This document shows, in pieces, positions 43,280 through 49,105 of a stretch of DNA of 64,000 nucleotides (position 1 is its first letter; every line of letters begins with the position of its first letter). The stretch is from assembly GCA_018240745.1 (NCBI GenBank), contig JAFEFF010000169.1:1-64000 (forward strand), in the 5' to 3' direction. Origin of the DNA: Pseudomonadota bacterium. Its GTDB lineage: Bacteria > Pseudomonadota > Alphaproteobacteria > Reyranellales > Reyranellaceae. Position numbers and translations under genes: made by a program. Under the pieces are notes generated by a model. It was not told where the DNA came from. It saw only the letters and a list, made by a program, of their open reading frames with translations, and made no database searches.

Positions 43280-44746
43280 GTGCCCAATCGCGCCTCCTTG
43301 CTCGCCCTCATTGCACTCGCCGTCCTCGCCGGGACGGCCGAGGTCGTCGTGGCGCGCGGTTTCCTGCTCGACGACGCGCTGATCCATGTGCGATCGGCCG
43401 ATCTGCTGCTGCGGGCGGGATTCCCGACCGCCGACGGAGTCACTCGCTCGTTCGCCGATTCCAGCCCGTTGTTCCTGCTGCTGACCGCCGCCGGCCTCGC
43501 GCTCGGCGGCTCGTTCTACGTGACCAAGCTGCTGTCGCTCGCCGCCTTTGGCGGGCTGGTCGCGGCGCTGGTCGCGACGGCCTGGCGCGAGCGCCATACG
43601 CAGGCGCAGGCGATCGTCGTGGCACTGCTGGTGCTCGTGCTGTCGCCGTTCGGCGTCAAATGGCTGACCGACGGGATGGAGACCGGCCTCGCCGTCCTGC
43701 TGGCGCTCCTGCTCGCCTCTACTCTCGACGGCGAGCGCCATCGACCGGTCGGCGCCGGCATGATCGCGCTGCTCTGCGTGCTGGTCAGGCCCGAACTCGC
43801 CGCCCTGGTCGCCGTGACCGCCGTCGGCCAGGTCTTGCGGTCGAACCGCCGCCTTGGGATGGCCACGACCCTGGGCGGACTGGCGGCGGTGGCCGCGCTC
43901 TACGGCATATTCGGCGGTTTCTGGCCGGACGCCGCGGTGGCGAAGGTGCGCTACGGCTATTCGCCCGCGGAGTTCCTGGAACTGCTCGCGAGCGTGGTCG
44001 CCGGCGCAGGGTTGGTGGGCATCGGGCTGGTCCTCGCGTGGCTCGGCTCGAGCGCGATCACGATCCGGGCGGCCTGGCGTACCGACCGCGCTCTCCTGCT
44101 GGGCCAGCTCTCGTTGCTGCTGGTGCTGGTCGCGATCGCCGTGCGCGGCCAGGCGGTCGAAGGCATCCGGCCGATGCTGCCGTTCCTTGCCTTCTCGCTG
44201 GCGTGCAGCGTGGCCCTCGTTCGGCGTTGCCTGCCGGCCCGCCCGATCGGCGCGAGAATGCTGCTGCCGCTCGCGGCTGCGGCCGTCGGGATCTGGACCG
44301 TCGATGCATTTGCGTTCGACCGCATCGTGCGCGTGCAGGCGCAATCGATGGAGGCGATGCGCACGCACGACTGGTCGGCGTTGCGCGGCCACACCGGCGT
44401 CGCCTGGGATGTCGGCTATCTCGCGTATTTTTCCGGGGCGCCGGTGTGCGATGCGCAGGGCCTGATCAACGGGCCCGACTTCGCGCGGCTGTCGCTGCCG
44501 GAGCGCTTGCGTCATTGCGCGCGAGTGGCCGACTTCGCCTTCGTCGATCCGCCGCGCTTCCATATTCTGACGACCGCGCTCGACATGCGCGGCTGGCGCG
44601 TCTGCGGGCGCTTCGACTTCGCGCATCGTACGGGGCCGGTGAACGTCTATCTCATCGTCGCGCCCCCGCTTGCGCGCGAGCCGTCCTGTCCGGGCTCGGC
44701 GCCGCGGATCGACGGCGCGAACCGGCTTCGCCAGGCCGCCCGCTAG
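43280..44746 (+). CDS. GT-C-like polytopic membrane protein in lasso operon
   Basis: A 488-residue protein from GTG with about ten hydrophobic segments. After the first helix comes RGFLLDDALIHVRSADLLL with Asp31-Asp32, the acidic first-loop motif of GT-C glycosyltransferases that use lipid-linked sugars. Later parts include WLTDGMETGLAVLLAL and a C-terminal soluble domain (GHTGVAWDVGYLAYFSGAP). Its TAG overlaps or abuts the kinase start (TAGTGGCCATG), so it is co-expressed with the lasso genes. A role in glycosylation or handling of the peptide is inference; it may instead be an unrelated neighbour. Confidence 0.65.
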   Translation: MPNRASLLALIALAVLAGTAEVVVARGFLLDDALIHVRSADLLLRAGFPTADGVTRSFADSSPLFLLLTAAGLALGGSFYVTKLLSLAAFGGLVAALVATAWRERHTQAQAIVVALLVLVLSPFGVKWLTDGMETGLAVLLALLLASTLDGERHRPVGAGMIALLCVLVRPELAALVAVTAVGQVLRSNRRLGMATTLGGLAAVAALYGIFGGFWPDAAVAKVRYGYSPAEFLELLASVVAGAGLVGIGLVLAWLGSSAITIRAAWRTDRALLLGQLSLLLVLVAIAVRGQAVEGIRPMLPFLAFSLACSVALVRRCLPARPIGARMLLPLAAAAVGIWTVDAFAFDRIVRVQAQSMEAMRTHDWSALRGHTGVAWDVGYLAYFSGAPVCDAQGLINGPDFARLSLPERLRHCARVADFAFVDPPRFHILTTALDMRGWRVCGRFDFAHRTGPVNVYLIVAPPLAREPSCPGSAPRIDGANRLRQAAR

Positions 44747-44751
44747 TGGCC

Positions 44752-45681
44752 ATGCAGGCCGTCGCGGCAGATCTTTCCCGCTACGCCGTCTACGGGCTGA
44801 CGGTCGAGAGCGCCTTCCCGCTCGGCACGCTGCCGGCGCCGCACGATGACAGGCCGGCCGCCGTACGCATCCTCGGCGCACCGGCAGGCACATTCGCGGG
44901 CCTCGATGCCGGTGCGTCGCCGGCGACGTGGTACCGGCACGCGCCGCTGGCCGATGGCGGCATCTACTTCGCAGTACCCGATGTGCTGCAGGCGATCGTC
45001 GGCCCCGACGGCCGCACTGCCCGTTGCGCGCCGGCGCCGGAGGGCGACCCGCGCTCGTTCGAAGCCAACCTGCTCAACTTCGTGCTGACGGCCGCCCTCA
45101 CCCTGCAGGGCGAAGAGCCGCTTCATGCCACCGTGGTGGGCGTGGACGGCCGAGCGGTCGGCTTCCTGGGCGACAGCGGCACCGGCAAGTCGACCCTCGC
45201 GGCGTTCCTGCTGGCGCGGGGCGCCGAGCTCGTGACCGACGACATGCTGCGCCTCGTCTACGACGCGGGCGAGCCGATCGCCTGTCGCGGCCCGCCGCGG
45301 CTGAAGCTGTTCGACGAGCAGGCGCGCCTGTTGCTGCCGACGGCCGTCCGCGATGCCGCGTTCAACCCGATGAGCGGCAAGCTGCTGGTCGAAGCGGCTT
45401 CGTCGGGCGAGGCCGGCGTCCGGTTGTCGGCGCTGTTCTGGCTCGGCGAAGCGCCGGCGGGTTCAGCGACGGTCACCGTGCGGCGCGTGCAGGGCGTGGA
45501 AGCCGTCAGGATATTGCTCGCCTCGACCTTGCATCGCGACCACCGTCCGCCGGAGCGGATCGAGCGCCAGCTCCGCTCGGTCGAGCGGCTGGCGAAGGCG
45601 GTGCCGCTGTTCGCGGTCGCGTACCCGCGCCGCCACGATCTCCTGCCCGCGGTCGCCGACGCGGTGCGTCGAAGCGCCTGA
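44752..45681 (+). CDS. HPr-kinase-like lasso-peptide kinase
   Basis: A 309-residue protein (GTG 44746 also possible). Its C-terminal half has the HPr kinase/phosphorylase core: Walker A GDSGTGKSTLAAF at about 140, then ELVTDDMLRL with the Asp pair at about 164, and a substrate-side region RLKLFDEQARLLLPTAV. Such kinases in paeninodin-type lasso clusters phosphorylate a Ser near the precursor C-terminus. No phosphotransferase-system genes are nearby, and the cyclase gene starts two bases after the stop, so the lasso role is favoured over carbon regulation. Confidence 0.85.
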   Translation: MQAVAADLSRYAVYGLTVESAFPLGTLPAPHDDRPAAVRILGAPAGTFAGLDAGASPATWYRHAPLADGGIYFAVPDVLQAIVGPDGRTARCAPAPEGDPRSFEANLLNFVLTAALTLQGEEPLHATVVGVDGRAVGFLGDSGTGKSTLAAFLLARGAELVTDDMLRLVYDAGEPIACRGPPRLKLFDEQARLLLPTAVRDAAFNPMSGKLLVEAASSGEAGVRLSALFWLGEAPAGSATVTVRRVQGVEAVRILLASTLHRDHRPPERIERQLRSVERLAKAVPLFAVAYPRRHDLLPAVADAVRRSA

Positions 45682-45683
45682 TC

Positions 45684-47306
45684 ATGCTCGCCGTCGTCTT
45701 CGATGCCGATGGTCGGCCGACCGGGCTCGACAAGTCGTTGGACGCCTGCCGCATCGCGGGCTCGATCCGCCTCGATGCGCGCGAAGACCTCCTTGCCGCC
45801 CTCGGCCTCGCGGACAAGTCGATCGGCGACGCCATGCTCTGCCTCCATGCGTGGCGCCGCTGGGGCGACGGCTTCGTCGAGCGGCTGGCCGGCGATTTCG
45901 CCTTCGCGCTGTGGGACGAATCGCGGCAACGGTTGCTGCTGGTGCGCGACCAGCTCGGGATCCGTTCGTTGTTCTACGCGCGCATCGGTACCGCCTGGGT
46001 CGTGTCGGATTCGCTCGAGTGGCTGGCGGCGCAGCCGGGACTCGACAAGCGACTCGACGAAACCTGGATCGGAGATTTCCTCGCGAGCGGACACAGCTTC
46101 GACGCCTGGCGCACGGTCTACGCCGCGGTGAAGCGTCTGCCGCCGGGCCATTGCGCGACCCTGAGGCGCGACGGCGAGGCGGTGCGCCGGTACTGGCAAC
46201 TGACCGTGGGCGAGCCGCTCTTCATGCGCGACGGCGAGGCCTATGGCGAGCGCCTGCGCGAGCTGACCAGGGCGGCGATCCGCGATCGCGCGCCGGCGGG
46301 CCGGGTCGGCATCTCGATGAGCGGCGGGCTCGATTCGACGACGCTGGCCGCGCTCTCGGTCGAGGCGCTGGGCGATGCTGCGCGGGTGACGGCGCGCTGC
46401 GCGCACTTCGAGACGCTGATGGCCGACGACGAGCCGCGCTTCGCACGCCTCGCGGCGCAGGCGCTCGGCATTGCGCTGGTCTTCGACAAGGCGGACGCCG
46501 CGTACGATCCCCAGTGGCGCGAGCGCGGCATTCGCACAGCCGAACCAAAGCTCGCCATCGTCAACGCCCACCGCGAGCGAACGCTCGCGCGCAGCATGGC
46601 GGCGGCGGCCGGCGTCTGGTTGTTCGGCGAAGGGCCGGACAATGCGCTTGCCTTCGAGCGCGAGGCCTATCTCGGCTGGCTGCTCCGCACCGGCCGATGG
46701 TCACGGCTGGCCTCGGCCCTCTGGCGCTATGCCGGCCTCAAGCTCGGCGAGCGGGAGCAGCGGCAACCACCGTCTCCCGCACGGCCTGCATCGTCCGGGC
46801 TGCCAGCCGAGCTGCCAGCCTGGCTCCGGCCGGACTTCGTCGAACGGACGGGTTTGCGCGAGCGGCTTCACAGCTTCTACTTCCCGCCGCCGCACGACCA
46901 TCCCTGGCATCCCCGCGCGATCGGCTCGTTCGGCACCCCGGTCTGGCAGTCGTTGCTCGGCAACCTCGAAGCCGACCTGGTGCAGGGGCTGGACTGGCGT
47001 CATCCCTATCTCGATCTGCGTGTGCTGCAGTTCCTGCTGAGCGTGCCCCCGGTGCCGTGGGCGCGCCGCAAGCTCGTGCTGCGCGAGGCCATGCGCGGCC
47101 GGCTGCCGGCGGAGGTGCTCGAGCGACGCAAGACGCCGCTGTCGGGCAATGCGCTTCACCGGGCTTTGTCGGGGGATGATCTGCCACCCCTCGAGTCGTC
47201 GTCACTGGCCCTGTGGATCGATCCGGCCCGGCTGCCCCGGCGGCCACAGGCCGCAGACCTCGATCCGTTGATCGCCGTCCATGCGCTGGACCATTGGCTC
47301 TCGTGA
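45684..47306 (+). CDS. Asparagine-synthetase-like lasso cyclase
   Basis: A 540-residue asparagine synthetase B homologue. Residues 1-190 are the class II amidotransferase-like domain, but the protein begins MLAVVFDADG and lacks the Cys2 needed for glutaminase activity, as expected for lasso cyclases. The ATP-pyrophosphatase loop is SMSGGLDSTTLA at about residue 211. Further landmarks are WLFGEGPDNALAFER and WRHPYLDLRVLQFLLSVPP. It would adenylate the Asp9 side chain of the core and close the ring on residue 1. It is flanked by kinase, leader-binding protein and precursors. Confidence 0.9.
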   Translation: MLAVVFDADGRPTGLDKSLDACRIAGSIRLDAREDLLAALGLADKSIGDAMLCLHAWRRWGDGFVERLAGDFAFALWDESRQRLLLVRDQLGIRSLFYARIGTAWVVSDSLEWLAAQPGLDKRLDETWIGDFLASGHSFDAWRTVYAAVKRLPPGHCATLRRDGEAVRRYWQLTVGEPLFMRDGEAYGERLRELTRAAIRDRAPAGRVGISMSGGLDSTTLAALSVEALGDAARVTARCAHFETLMADDEPRFARLAAQALGIALVFDKADAAYDPQWRERGIRTAEPKLAIVNAHRERTLARSMAAAAGVWLFGEGPDNALAFEREAYLGWLLRTGRWSRLASALWRYAGLKLGEREQRQPPSPARPASSGLPAELPAWLRPDFVERTGLRERLHSFYFPPPHDHPWHPRAIGSFGTPVWQSLLGNLEADLVQGLDWRHPYLDLRVLQFLLSVPPVPWARRKLVLREAMRGRLPAEVLERRKTPLSGNALHRALSGDDLPPLESSSLALWIDPARLPRRPQAADLDPLIAVHALDHWLS

Positions 47307-47317
47307 CTGCATAGTGT

Positions 47318-47614
47318 GTGCGGGTGTCTGAAGTGCTTGAACCGTCGACTGTCTTCCGGAGATCGGCCCGGCAGGTTTCGTGTGACCTGAACGGCGAGGC
47401 TGCGATTCTGCATCTCGACCAGTCGGTCTATTTCGGCCTCAAGGGCGTCGGTGCCCATGTGTGGATGGCGTTGGAGAAACCGCAGTCGTTCGCCGAGCTC
47501 AATCGAGCAGTGTGCAAGGAGTTCGACGTCGATGCGGCGCAGGCCAAGGCGGACCTGATGAAATTTCTTTCTGAGCTGCAAACAGCAGGGCTGGTGGAGA
47601 GGGTCGAGGGATGA
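47318..47614 (+). CDS. PqqD-like RiPP recognition element (lasso B1)
   Basis: A 98-residue protein starting at GTG (another GTG two codons on). It has the PqqD/RRE winged-helix fold: SARQVSCDLNGEAAILHLD, SVYFGLKGVGAHVWMAL, FAELNRAVCKEFDVD, and MKFLSELQTAGLVER. It should bind the Y-x-x-P leader motif of the precursors and present them to the enzymes. Its TGA overlaps the ATG of the first precursor gene (ATGA). No peptidase domain is fused to it. Confidence 0.9.
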   Translation: MRVSEVLEPSTVFRRSARQVSCDLNGEAAILHLDQSVYFGLKGVGAHVWMALEKPQSFAELNRAVCKEFDVDAAQAKADLMKFLSELQTAGLVERVEG

Positions 47615-47763
47615 ATCAGTCGGACTGCGCCGAGGAGGCGAGGAAAACGTACGAGGCGCCCGCTCTCGTCCGCTGGGGCACGCTGCGGGAGATCACACAG
47701 GCTGTCGGCAACAGGGGTGCGTCGGACGGCGGTCACAAAAGAAACAAGCGAACGAGCTACTGA
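47611..47763 (+). CDS. Lasso-peptide precursor 1
   Basis: Fifty residues: a 30-residue leader with the recognition motif Y14-E-A-P17-A-L19-x3-G23 and Thr29 at position -2, then a predicted 20-residue core AVGNRGASDGGHKRNKRTSY (bases 47701-47760). The expected macrolactam is Ala1 to Asp9, giving a 9-residue ring and an 11-residue basic tail. The tail ends Thr-Ser-Tyr, where Ser19 is a candidate phosphorylation site for the operon kinase. ATG overlaps the RRE stop. The cleavage site is inferred from the conserved -2 Thr; a Gly start two residues later would give a 7-residue ring. Confidence 0.88.
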   Translation: MNQSDCAEEARKTYEAPALVRWGTLREITQAVGNRGASDGGHKRNKRTSY

Positions 47764-47811
47764 GCCGGTCCGCCGGTTCTCTTTCTCGCCCTTTCTCTGT
47801 ATCTTCGTCGT

Positions 47812-47997
47812 GTGAAAAACGACGCGAATCCTACACCACCGCGGCCCGCCGAAGACGCGAAGGGTGCAGAAGCCCGGAAGCCCTATGAAGCGCCTGAGCT
47901 CATCCGCTGGGGCACCCTGCATGCGCTCACGCAGTCCGTCGGCTTCAAAGGTGCATCGGACGGCGCCCGGCGGGGACATACCAGAACGTCCTTCTGA
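47812..47997 (+). CDS. Lasso-peptide precursor 2
   Basis: Sixty-one residues from GTG 47812 (no ATG is available). The 41-residue leader ends Y25-E-A-P28-E-L30-x3-G34 with Thr40 at -2. The predicted core is SVGFKGASDGARRGHTRTSF (bases 47935-47994), with Ser1 and Asp9 as ring residues. It shares VG, GASDG and the RTS-aromatic end with precursor 1 but differs in the tail. The leader has a Pro-rich extension of 11 residues. No good ribosome binding site is seen, so it may be translated less than precursor 1. Confidence 0.88.
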   Translation: MKNDANPTPPRPAEDAKGAEARKPYEAPELIRWGTLHALTQSVGFKGASDGARRGHTRTSF

Positions 47998-49105
47998 GCT
48001 GCTGTGCCGCGCGGCGCGGCCTTCAGCGACGACCGGGGGCGTGCGCGACGTCGCAGCATGGAGCAGCGTCACATCCCTGGCGACCGATCATGGATTGCGG
48101 CCGGCGCTGATCGAGTTCCTGTCGGCGGTCGATTGGAAGTCGGTGCCCGACCCGGTGCGGGCCGAGCTGGAGGACTTCCAGCGCTCGCATCTGCTGCGCA
48201 CACTCGAGATCGCGGAGGAGCTCGCCCGCGTCGCACGGACATTTCAATCGCACGGCATTCCGTTCGCCCTGTTCAAGGGCGCGGCGGTGTCGATCCAGCT
48301 CTACGGCCGGCTGGCGGCGCGCGAATACAACGACCTCGACCTGATCGTGCCGGCGGCCGACGTCGCGCGCGCGGAGGCGCTGCTGTCGGCGCGCGGCTAT
48401 CGGCCGGCGTTTGCCGAGCCGCGTTTCCGCCGCTTCTTCCAGGGCCACCAGGGACAGACCGCGTTCCGCCGCGACGGCGGCTCGGTCGATCTCGATCTGC
48501 ATTGGACGTTCAGCGGCGCGTTCCTGCCGTTCCCGCTGCAAGACAGCGAGATCTGGGACCGCCTGACCAGCGTGCCGGTGGCCGGCGTCGACGTGCCGAC
48601 CCTGGCGCCGGCCGACACGGTCCTGCTGCTCGCGGGGCACGGCACCAAGGAAGGCTGGCGCTCGCTGATGTGGCTGCGCGACTTCGCCTTCGCGGTCGAT
48701 CGCTGGCGCGAGCTCGACTGGGCCGACATCCATCGCCGCGCGCATCGTAACGGCTGCGGCGACAGTGTCCTGCTGGCCTGCGCGCTCGCCGAGCAGGTGC
48801 TGGGCACCGCCGTCCCGCCCGCGCTGGCGCGGGCGGTCGCCGGCAGCGAACGCGTTGCCGCGCTCGCCGACGCTCTGGCGGCGCGCTTGCGCGAGGGCAA
48901 TCTCGACAAGCGCCATCTCGACGATCTCGCATTGTGCGACCGCCGCATCGATCGCTGGCGGGCGGGCCTCGCTCTTGCGCTGACGCCGACGCCCGGCGAC
49001 TTCGACGCCCGGCCGTTGCCGCGTGCGCTGTGGCCGGCTTACTACCTGCTGCGCCCGGTGCGGCTCCTTTCGAAGGCCGTGCGAGGGACCTTGCCGCTGC
49101 CTTGA
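47951..49105 (+). CDS. PF14907-type nucleotidyltransferase of lasso cluster
   Basis: About 384 residues from GTG 47951, or 354 from GTG 48041. The upstream start is preferred because ERPSELLCRAAR matches the usual family N-terminus, and it would overlap precursor 2 by 47 bases. The core motif is GIPFALFKGAAVSIQLYG followed by AAREYNDLDLIVP, with the D-L-D metal site of the nucleotidyltransferase fold. SVDLDLHWTFSG gives the third acidic residue. Homologues occur in paeninodin/pseudomycoidin-type lasso clusters next to the kinase and are thought to act on the phosphorylated peptide. Confidence 0.85.
   Translation: MHRTAPGGDIPERPSELLCRAARPSATTGGVRDVAAWSSVTSLATDHGLRPALIEFLSAVDWKSVPDPVRAELEDFQRSHLLRTLEIAEELARVARTFQSHGIPFALFKGAAVSIQLYGRLAAREYNDLDLIVPAADVARAEALLSARGYRPAFAEPRFRRFFQGHQGQTAFRRDGGSVDLDLHWTFSGAFLPFPLQDSEIWDRLTSVPVAGVDVPTLAPADTVLLLAGHGTKEGWRSLMWLRDFAFAVDRWRELDWADIHRRAHRNGCGDSVLLACALAEQVLGTAVPPALARAVAGSERVAALADALAARLREGNLDKRHLDDLALCDRRIDRWRAGLALALTPTPGDFDARPLPRALWPAYYLLRPVRLLSKAVRGTLPLP

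Follow-up and report, generated by a model that had tools for sequence, protein, structure and literature searches.

A kinase-containing lasso peptide operon of Reyranella with a leader peptidase and a third precursor encoded elsewhere in the genome

Analysis of a 64,000-nucleotide window (positions 1 to 64,000 of contig JAFEFF010000169.1, assembly GCA_018240745.1; here contig C76 of genome G000, 5.88 Mb in 225 contigs) revealed at 43280-49105, in one direction, the genes of a predicted lasso peptide pathway: an HPr-kinase-like (HprK-like) kinase, a cyclase of the asparagine-synthetase family, the leader-binding protein B1, two precursors (A1 and A2) and a nucleotidyltransferase, preceded by a gene for a membrane protein. 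As far as products can be deduced from genes, this operon probably encodes the central part of a pathway, dispersed over the genome, for a class of phosphorylated lasso peptides specific to Reyranella. With only slight confidence we also lean towards a fuller account, in which one kinase-containing operon matures several scattered precursors, the operonic leader peptidase B2 has been replaced in two lineages by an unlinked foreign B2, and the products are lasso peptides with Thr-phosphorylated, possibly sugar-modified tails. An earlier note on this DNA had described the operon, and open reading frames (ORFs) together with Pfam and NCBIfam matches bear out every gene listed there; the set is nevertheless incomplete, B2 and a third precursor being encoded elsewhere in the genome.

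The host was assigned to the genus Reyranella within the Alphaproteobacteria, the nearest named matches of its cyclase being Reyranella assemblies. It is a soil-type bacterium, and third-position GC is high (0.86-0.89) in the large ORFs. The alphaproteobacterial origin proposed in the note is supported. The cyclase was found in 42 of 65 Reyranella genomes, and the kinase, cyclase, recognition element (B1), precursors and nucleotidyltransferase are conserved across the genus. The usual order is kinase-B2-cyclase-B1-precursor(s)-nucleotidyltransferase, and its recurrence in dozens of genomes indicates that the gene set is more than a chance assembly.

A leader peptidase and precursors away from the operon

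Co-location of B2 with the lasso cluster is usual, but not defining. In the window only 2 bases separate the kinase stop from the cyclase start, at the place where relatives encode B2; a B2 gene hidden in this junction was dismissed for lack of room. The sole PF13471 gene of the genome lies on another contig (C30:7505-7930, minus strand), between two oxidoreductase-like genes; NCBIfam identifies its product as a lasso B2 (score 87 bits, cut-off 33), and the Cys and His residues are kept. B2 was found in 40 of the 65 genomes, all 40 of which bear the cyclase. Unlinked copies occur in exactly the three genomes whose main operon lacks B2, namely G000 and the sister genomes G027 and G036, where the unlinked protein is 60% identical to that of C30 and none is encoded in the operon. 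Every other main operon with a visible kinase-cyclase junction carries its own B2.

The unlinked B2 proteins form one clade (support 100/96), apart from the operonic B2 clade, and a single clade for unlinked and operonic B2 was rejected by the approximately unbiased (AU) test (p-AU 0.0005). In the cyclase phylogeny, G000 groups with G066, in which the operonic B2 is kept, and is placed far from G027 and G036. The simplest reading would be that related B2 genes of foreign origin replaced the operonic one on two independent occasions. Comparison of the neighbourhoods of the unlinked genes (C30 versus G027/G036) revealed nothing in common beyond the B2 gene; a search for convergent B1 residues in the three genomes gave one weak, uninformative column, and no solved structures were found for B2. 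The secondary operons of G061 (with the kinase in pieces) and G068 contain kinase and cyclase without B2, one B2 being encoded elsewhere in the genome, and thus fit the action of B2 in trans.

A profile built from 20 precursors was searched across the 65 genomes, matches being counted as linked if a cyclase lay no more than 10 kb away or if their contig carried other operon genes. The search gave 93 matches in 44 genomes, 53 of them linked and 40, distributed over 22 genomes, unlinked. Distances of 2.68 and 2.84 Mb separate two precursors of G021, assembled as a single contig, from its operon; a precursor of G061 shares a contig with the nearest operon and is 2.05 Mb away from it. With the exception of contigs counted as linked, no lasso machinery was found in the approximately 4-16 kb around each unlinked precursor. 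The operons of G035 and G071 gave no precursor match, and these genomes contain four and two unlinked precursors, respectively. In related species the precursor genes are spread more widely still than in G000. In G000 the third precursor, A3 (C10:19923-20033), with the predicted core AVGNKGASDGGSKNEKRTSF, is unlinked; its neighbours are, to judge from their sequences, presumably a phosphatase-like and a hydrolase-like gene. Precursors were present in 41 of the 42 genomes with the cyclase versus 3 of the 23 without it, and two of these three exceptions carry operon fragments. Co-occurrence with the cyclase was significant for precursors of any kind (p=1e-12) and for unlinked ones (p=0.001), both values being uncorrected for kinship.

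In the related genomes G028, G034 and G026, three tandem unlinked precursor genes with a similar layout were observed away from the machinery (L226:5203-6001, L227:5095-5891 and L228:2268-3228).

The same picture might be left by a decaying lasso cluster that lost B2, with the unlinked B2 and precursors as unrelated relics, and the empty junction, the damage to some Reyranella operons (G017) and the unlinked precursors without YxxP would agree with this. However, the remaining genes are all open and keep their catalytic residues, the two operon precursors and the third, unlinked one retain the leader and core patterns, and the unlinked B2, with its Cys and His intact, occurs only where the operonic B2 is missing, so that decay is considered unlikely. 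It is slightly less probable still that no dedicated B2 is needed and another protease removes the leader. All cyclase genomes with a fully visible main operon have B2 somewhere, and Thr(-2), the residue recognised by B2, is kept in 90 of 91 precursors. In favour of another protease, pseudomycoidin was reportedly produced in vivo in the absence of both leader and leader peptidase (Zyubko 2019, cited in PMC9266682, PMC10885120), and linear phosphopeptides use a signal-peptidase-like enzyme (PMC13381572).

Operon proteins, predicted cores and the candidate phosphosite

The kinase gene (K; 44752..45681, plus strand, as are all genes of the operon) encodes a protein that matches PF07475 (E=5.9e-7) and keeps H125, the Walker motif GDSGTGKS and DD163-164. 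Residues H125, G140, G143, G145, K146, S147, D163 and D164 are invariant among the Reyranella homologues and agree with the motif of the Bradymonas sediminis kinase BsfK. The protein therefore has the H, K and DD motif of HprK-like, paeninodin-type kinases, and the label of HPr-kinase-like kinase given to it previously is retained.

The cyclase (C; 45684..47306) matches PF00733 (1.4e-19) and also contains partial glutamine amidotransferase (GATase) domains. The SGGLDS motif is present and residue 2 is Leu, in accordance with the earlier description of an asparagine-synthetase-like cyclase without Cys2. Its top NCBIfam model is the lasso cyclase NF033535 (8.7e-57, 193 bits, under the cut-off of 525 bits), and 94 positions are near-invariant across the conserved homologues. 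On a quick tree, the Reyranella cyclases form one clade (support 100) among lasso-associated cyclases, and the asparagine-synthetase paralogue from the same genome (L156) clusters with loci without lasso genes; a second paralogue fragment from this genome was too short for placement. Best model and tree thus assign the protein to the lasso branch of the asparagine-synthetase family, and the grouping with non-lasso asparagine synthetases, which the earlier note had singled out as a danger to its proposal, did not occur. PF00733 and the partial GATase domains would also suit an ordinary glutamine-dependent asparagine synthetase or amidotransferase, but the missing Cys2, the lasso cyclase model, the position of the paralogue in another clade and the adjacent precursors and B1 make this extremely improbable; a plain asparagine synthetase was ruled out by the model match, the tree and the neighbours.

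B1 (47318..47614), for which 47318, 47324 and 47333 are possible starts, was recognised as a PqqD-like protein (PF05402, 3e-15; NF033536, 1.4e-14) with TbiB1 as the closest solved structure (5v1u, 1.2e-11), consistent with its proposed role as the recognition element for ribosomally synthesised and post-translationally modified peptides (RiPPs). The nucleotidyltransferase-fold protein (N; 48041..49105) matches PF14907 at 1.2e-51, as had been noted; its start is likely to be near 48041, since a longer ORF overlaps A2 out of frame. The nearest folds to its AlphaFold model (predicted local distance difference test, pLDDT, 84.8) are ANT(2'')-Ia and LnuA, with a weaker likeness to FKRP, a ribitol-phosphate transferase. 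Residues D98, D100 and D152 are invariant in the aligned homologues, which makes the transfer of a nucleotide-derived group by this protein plausible.

Precursors A1 (47611..47763) and A2 (47812..47997), the two small precursors of the original description, both exceed the cut-off of the lasso-leader model NF033521 (28.7 and 21.5 bits, respectively; cut-off 19), and their leaders contain YxxPxL and Thr at -2. Published rules (PMC10368454) give the leader spacing as Tyr at -17 and Thr at -2, and on the basis of agreement with this spacing the cores were placed as AVGNRGASDGGHKRNKRTSY in A1 and SVGFKGASDGARRGHTRTSF in A2, both of them basic, as anticipated. A 9-residue ring is predicted in each, closing from Ala1 to Asp9 in A1 and from Ser1 to Asp9 in A2; an acidic residue within positions 7-9, namely Asp9, is likewise found in the unlinked A3. 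The calculated monoisotopic masses of the cores after loss of water are 2112.07 for A1 and 2075.04 for A2, rising to 2192.03 and 2155.01 with an addition of 80, and to 2354.09 and 2317.06 with a further hexose. Starting the core at Gly3, with a ring of 7 residues, was rejected, as it breaks the Thr(-2) and Tyr(-17) spacing and fails for cores without Gly3.

Alignment of the family showed that relatives conserve the precursors, and the case raised in the note, of relatives keeping the other genes without them, was not encountered. Of 47 operon-region precursors, 46 have Thr(-2), and all 47 have a tail Thr with R, S, G, N or D as the next residue; 38 carry Asp at position 9 and the other 9 carry it at position 10, Asp9 being invariant in the larger core class. 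In the set drawn from loci selected as unlinked, a few of which turned out to carry operon genes, all 44 precursors have Thr(-2), Asp9 and the tail Thr. Taken together, 90 of 91 precursors have Thr(-2) and all 91 have the tail Thr, with the Asp at 9 or 10. The nine precursors with the acidic residue at position 10 (L112, L114, L119, L170, L173) have an extended tail of the TGRGG type and would form a 10-residue ring if their core start is right.

Phosphorylation had been expected at a Ser near the C-terminus, and this part of the proposal has to be revised. Ser occurs within the last three core residues in a minority of precursors, the last residue of A1 and A2 is Tyr or Phe, and the nearest relative, G066, has the tail NTGL, with Thr retained and Ser lost. 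Ser was rejected as the conserved phosphosite, since the penultimate Ser is not conserved whereas the tail Thr is invariant in both sets. Should the kinase, like PadeK and SyanK, act close to the C-terminal end, phosphorylation would be expected on Thr; BsfK tolerates a Ser-to-Thr replacement (PMC10368454). By analogy, the kinase would phosphorylate the invariant tail Thr.

The products could instead be linear phosphorylated peptides, or contain another lactam, rather than being threaded lassos: kinase, recognition element and nucleoside triphosphate (NTP) transferase occur also in clusters for linear phosphopeptides (LPP; PMC13381572), position 1 of the cores is atypical, and Asp is at position 10 in 9 of 47 operon-region cores. 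Given the conserved lasso-type cyclase, with its near-invariant positions, and the invariance of Asp9 in the larger core class, we regard this as unlikely, and a lasso fold is the preferred prediction.

The genes are closely packed: the kinase begins 5 bases past the membrane-protein gene, at the successive junctions of kinase, cyclase, B1 and A1 the genes overlap or stand apart by 2 to 11 bases, and A1 and A2 are spaced by 48 bases. Promoter and terminator scans of the region gave matches at chance level; a terminator-like hairpin at 47762-47779, directly 3' of A1 and 5' of A2, is among such matches, the regional count of which corresponds to chance.

The multi-pass membrane protein (43280..44746; 488 amino acids, GTG start) is collinear with the operon and has 10 candidate transmembrane segments by hydropathy. 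The presence of this gene, whose product was described earlier as GT-C-like, is confirmed; the label of the protein as a GT-C glycosyltransferase is weak, coming from hydropathy and a sub-threshold match to NF047440. Its single-sequence AlphaFold model (pLDDT 43) was useless. Neither the 64 further Reyranella genomes nor 289 sampled genomes of the class yielded a homologue, so that its membership of the conserved pathway was not supported, and in view of this and the marginal family match it is treated as a neighbour.

Proposed pathway

In the proposed pathway, B1 would bind the YxxPxL leader and present the precursor, and the kinase would phosphorylate the invariant tail Thr before leader removal, an order demonstrated for homologues (PMC9266682, PMC10368454); BsfK is accelerated by BsfB1 (PMC10368454). 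The N protein may add a group to the phosphate, in the manner of PsmN, which is needed for hexosylation of the phosphate in pseudomycoidin (PMC9266682). B2, acting in trans, would cut the leader between -1 and +1, two residues past the start of the conserved Thr(-2) pair, and the cyclase would join residue 1 to Asp9, yielding a threaded 20-residue basic peptide. The same machinery would serve the third, unlinked precursor A3.

Several points weigh against this reconstruction. Since the G000 assembly has an estimated contamination of 2.78% besides its 225 contigs, C30 and C10 could in principle derive from another strain. No transporter was identified in the operon. Core position 1 is never Gly among the operon-region precursors (T, A, S, K, N, F and H were found), which is unusual for lasso peptides. 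The replacement of B2 amounts to two events, G027 and G036 being close relatives, and YxxP is missing from two unlinked precursors (G016, G030), a possible sign of decay.

Distribution and relation to known systems

Kinase, B1, B2 and nucleotidyltransferase occur together at 25 of 68 non-Reyranella cyclase loci, belonging to Gemmatimonadota, Binatota, Chloroflexota, Cyanobacteriota, several Pseudomonadota and Bacillota; the loci were collected by cyclase similarity, and the fraction is not a survey proportion. Kinase-bearing lasso clusters outside Gram-positive bacteria have moreover been published for Sphingobium (SyanK) and Bradymonadales (BsfK) (PMC10368454, PMC9266682). The kinase and nucleotidyltransferase pair is thus not the Gram-positive trait that the earlier note had taken it for, and phosphorylated lasso clusters, including proteobacterial ones, are already known.

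Several peculiar loci were observed in the course of these comparisons. Two loci (L059, L060) with cyclase, kinase, B1, B2 and nucleotidyltransferase are on contigs labelled as a Euryarchaeota metagenome-assembled genome, so that either an archaeon carries a lasso-like set, which would be rare, or the contigs were misbinned. In G017 (L113:1475-2244), a shortened cyclase abuts the end of the nucleotidyltransferase gene, resembling a mid-operon deletion. Second lasso operons (L174, L175, L179, L180 and L188 of G061, G014, G034, G028 and G068, respectively) are without B2 and mostly without an intact kinase, and those of their precursors that were found have in common a GSF/GTF leader and an STR tail. 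Genes similar to 2-oxoglutarate (2OG)-Fe(II) oxygenases (PF13640) were found beside or inside Reyranella lasso operons (L168:3947-6779, L169:3171-4991, L118:205-762 and L161:5260-5835), those of L168, where a PhyH-like gene (PF05721) is also present, being assigned by Pfam and the others by sequence likeness; they may represent extra tailoring.

The Bsf clusters of Bradymonas sediminis (BsfA, B1, B2, C, K and N) resemble those of Reyranella in the split B1/B2, the HprK-like kinase with the same catalytic motif, the N gene and the YxxPxL leader with Tyr at -17, and BsfK, B1 and B2 match the Reyranella profiles. They differ in having Ile(-2), a core Gly1, a ring to Asp8 and phosphorylation at Ser3, whereas the system described here has Thr(-2), Ala, Ser or Thr at position 1, Asp9, the invariant tail Thr, B2 outside the operon and dispersed precursors; the Bsf-type combination of Ile/Val(-2) with Ser/Thr at core position 3 is replaced in A1 and A2 by Thr(-2) and Gly3. 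Likeness to the paeninodin and pseudomycoidin systems of Bacillota and to SyanK of Sphingobium yanoikuyae lies in a kinase acting near the C-terminus and, for pseudomycoidin, in the nucleotidyltransferase-like PsmN, which is required for adding hexoses to the phosphate (PMC9266682). In those systems, however, the conserved C-terminal Ser is phosphorylated, while A1 and A2 end in Tyr or Phe and the hydroxyl that is conserved belongs to Thr; the leaders of the Bacillota paeninodins contain WxxP (PMC13381572), and those of A1 and A2 contain YxxP.

Dispersal as such has parallels in another RiPP class. In lanthipeptide systems with unclustered proteases the essential protease is encoded away from the synthetase (PMC8960859). 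Many precursors of the prochlorosins are likewise encoded away from their synthetase. No published description of Reyranella lasso peptides, of dispersed lasso precursors or of an unlinked, replaced lasso B2 was found in a literature search that covered few subscription papers and is therefore weak evidence; to that extent, the suggestion of an undescribed product family is upheld.

Genome mining for lasso peptides seeks precursors and B genes beside the cyclase, and in Reyranella would miss 40 of the 93 precursors as well as B2 in three genomes. If one machinery serves dispersed precursors, lasso peptide libraries may exceed the present catalogues, and the B1 leader motif alone would find precursors. 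The invariant tail Thr provides a specific prediction for the kinase, and the exchange of B2 for a foreign one would constitute a natural experiment on the closeness of fit that B1 and B2 require.

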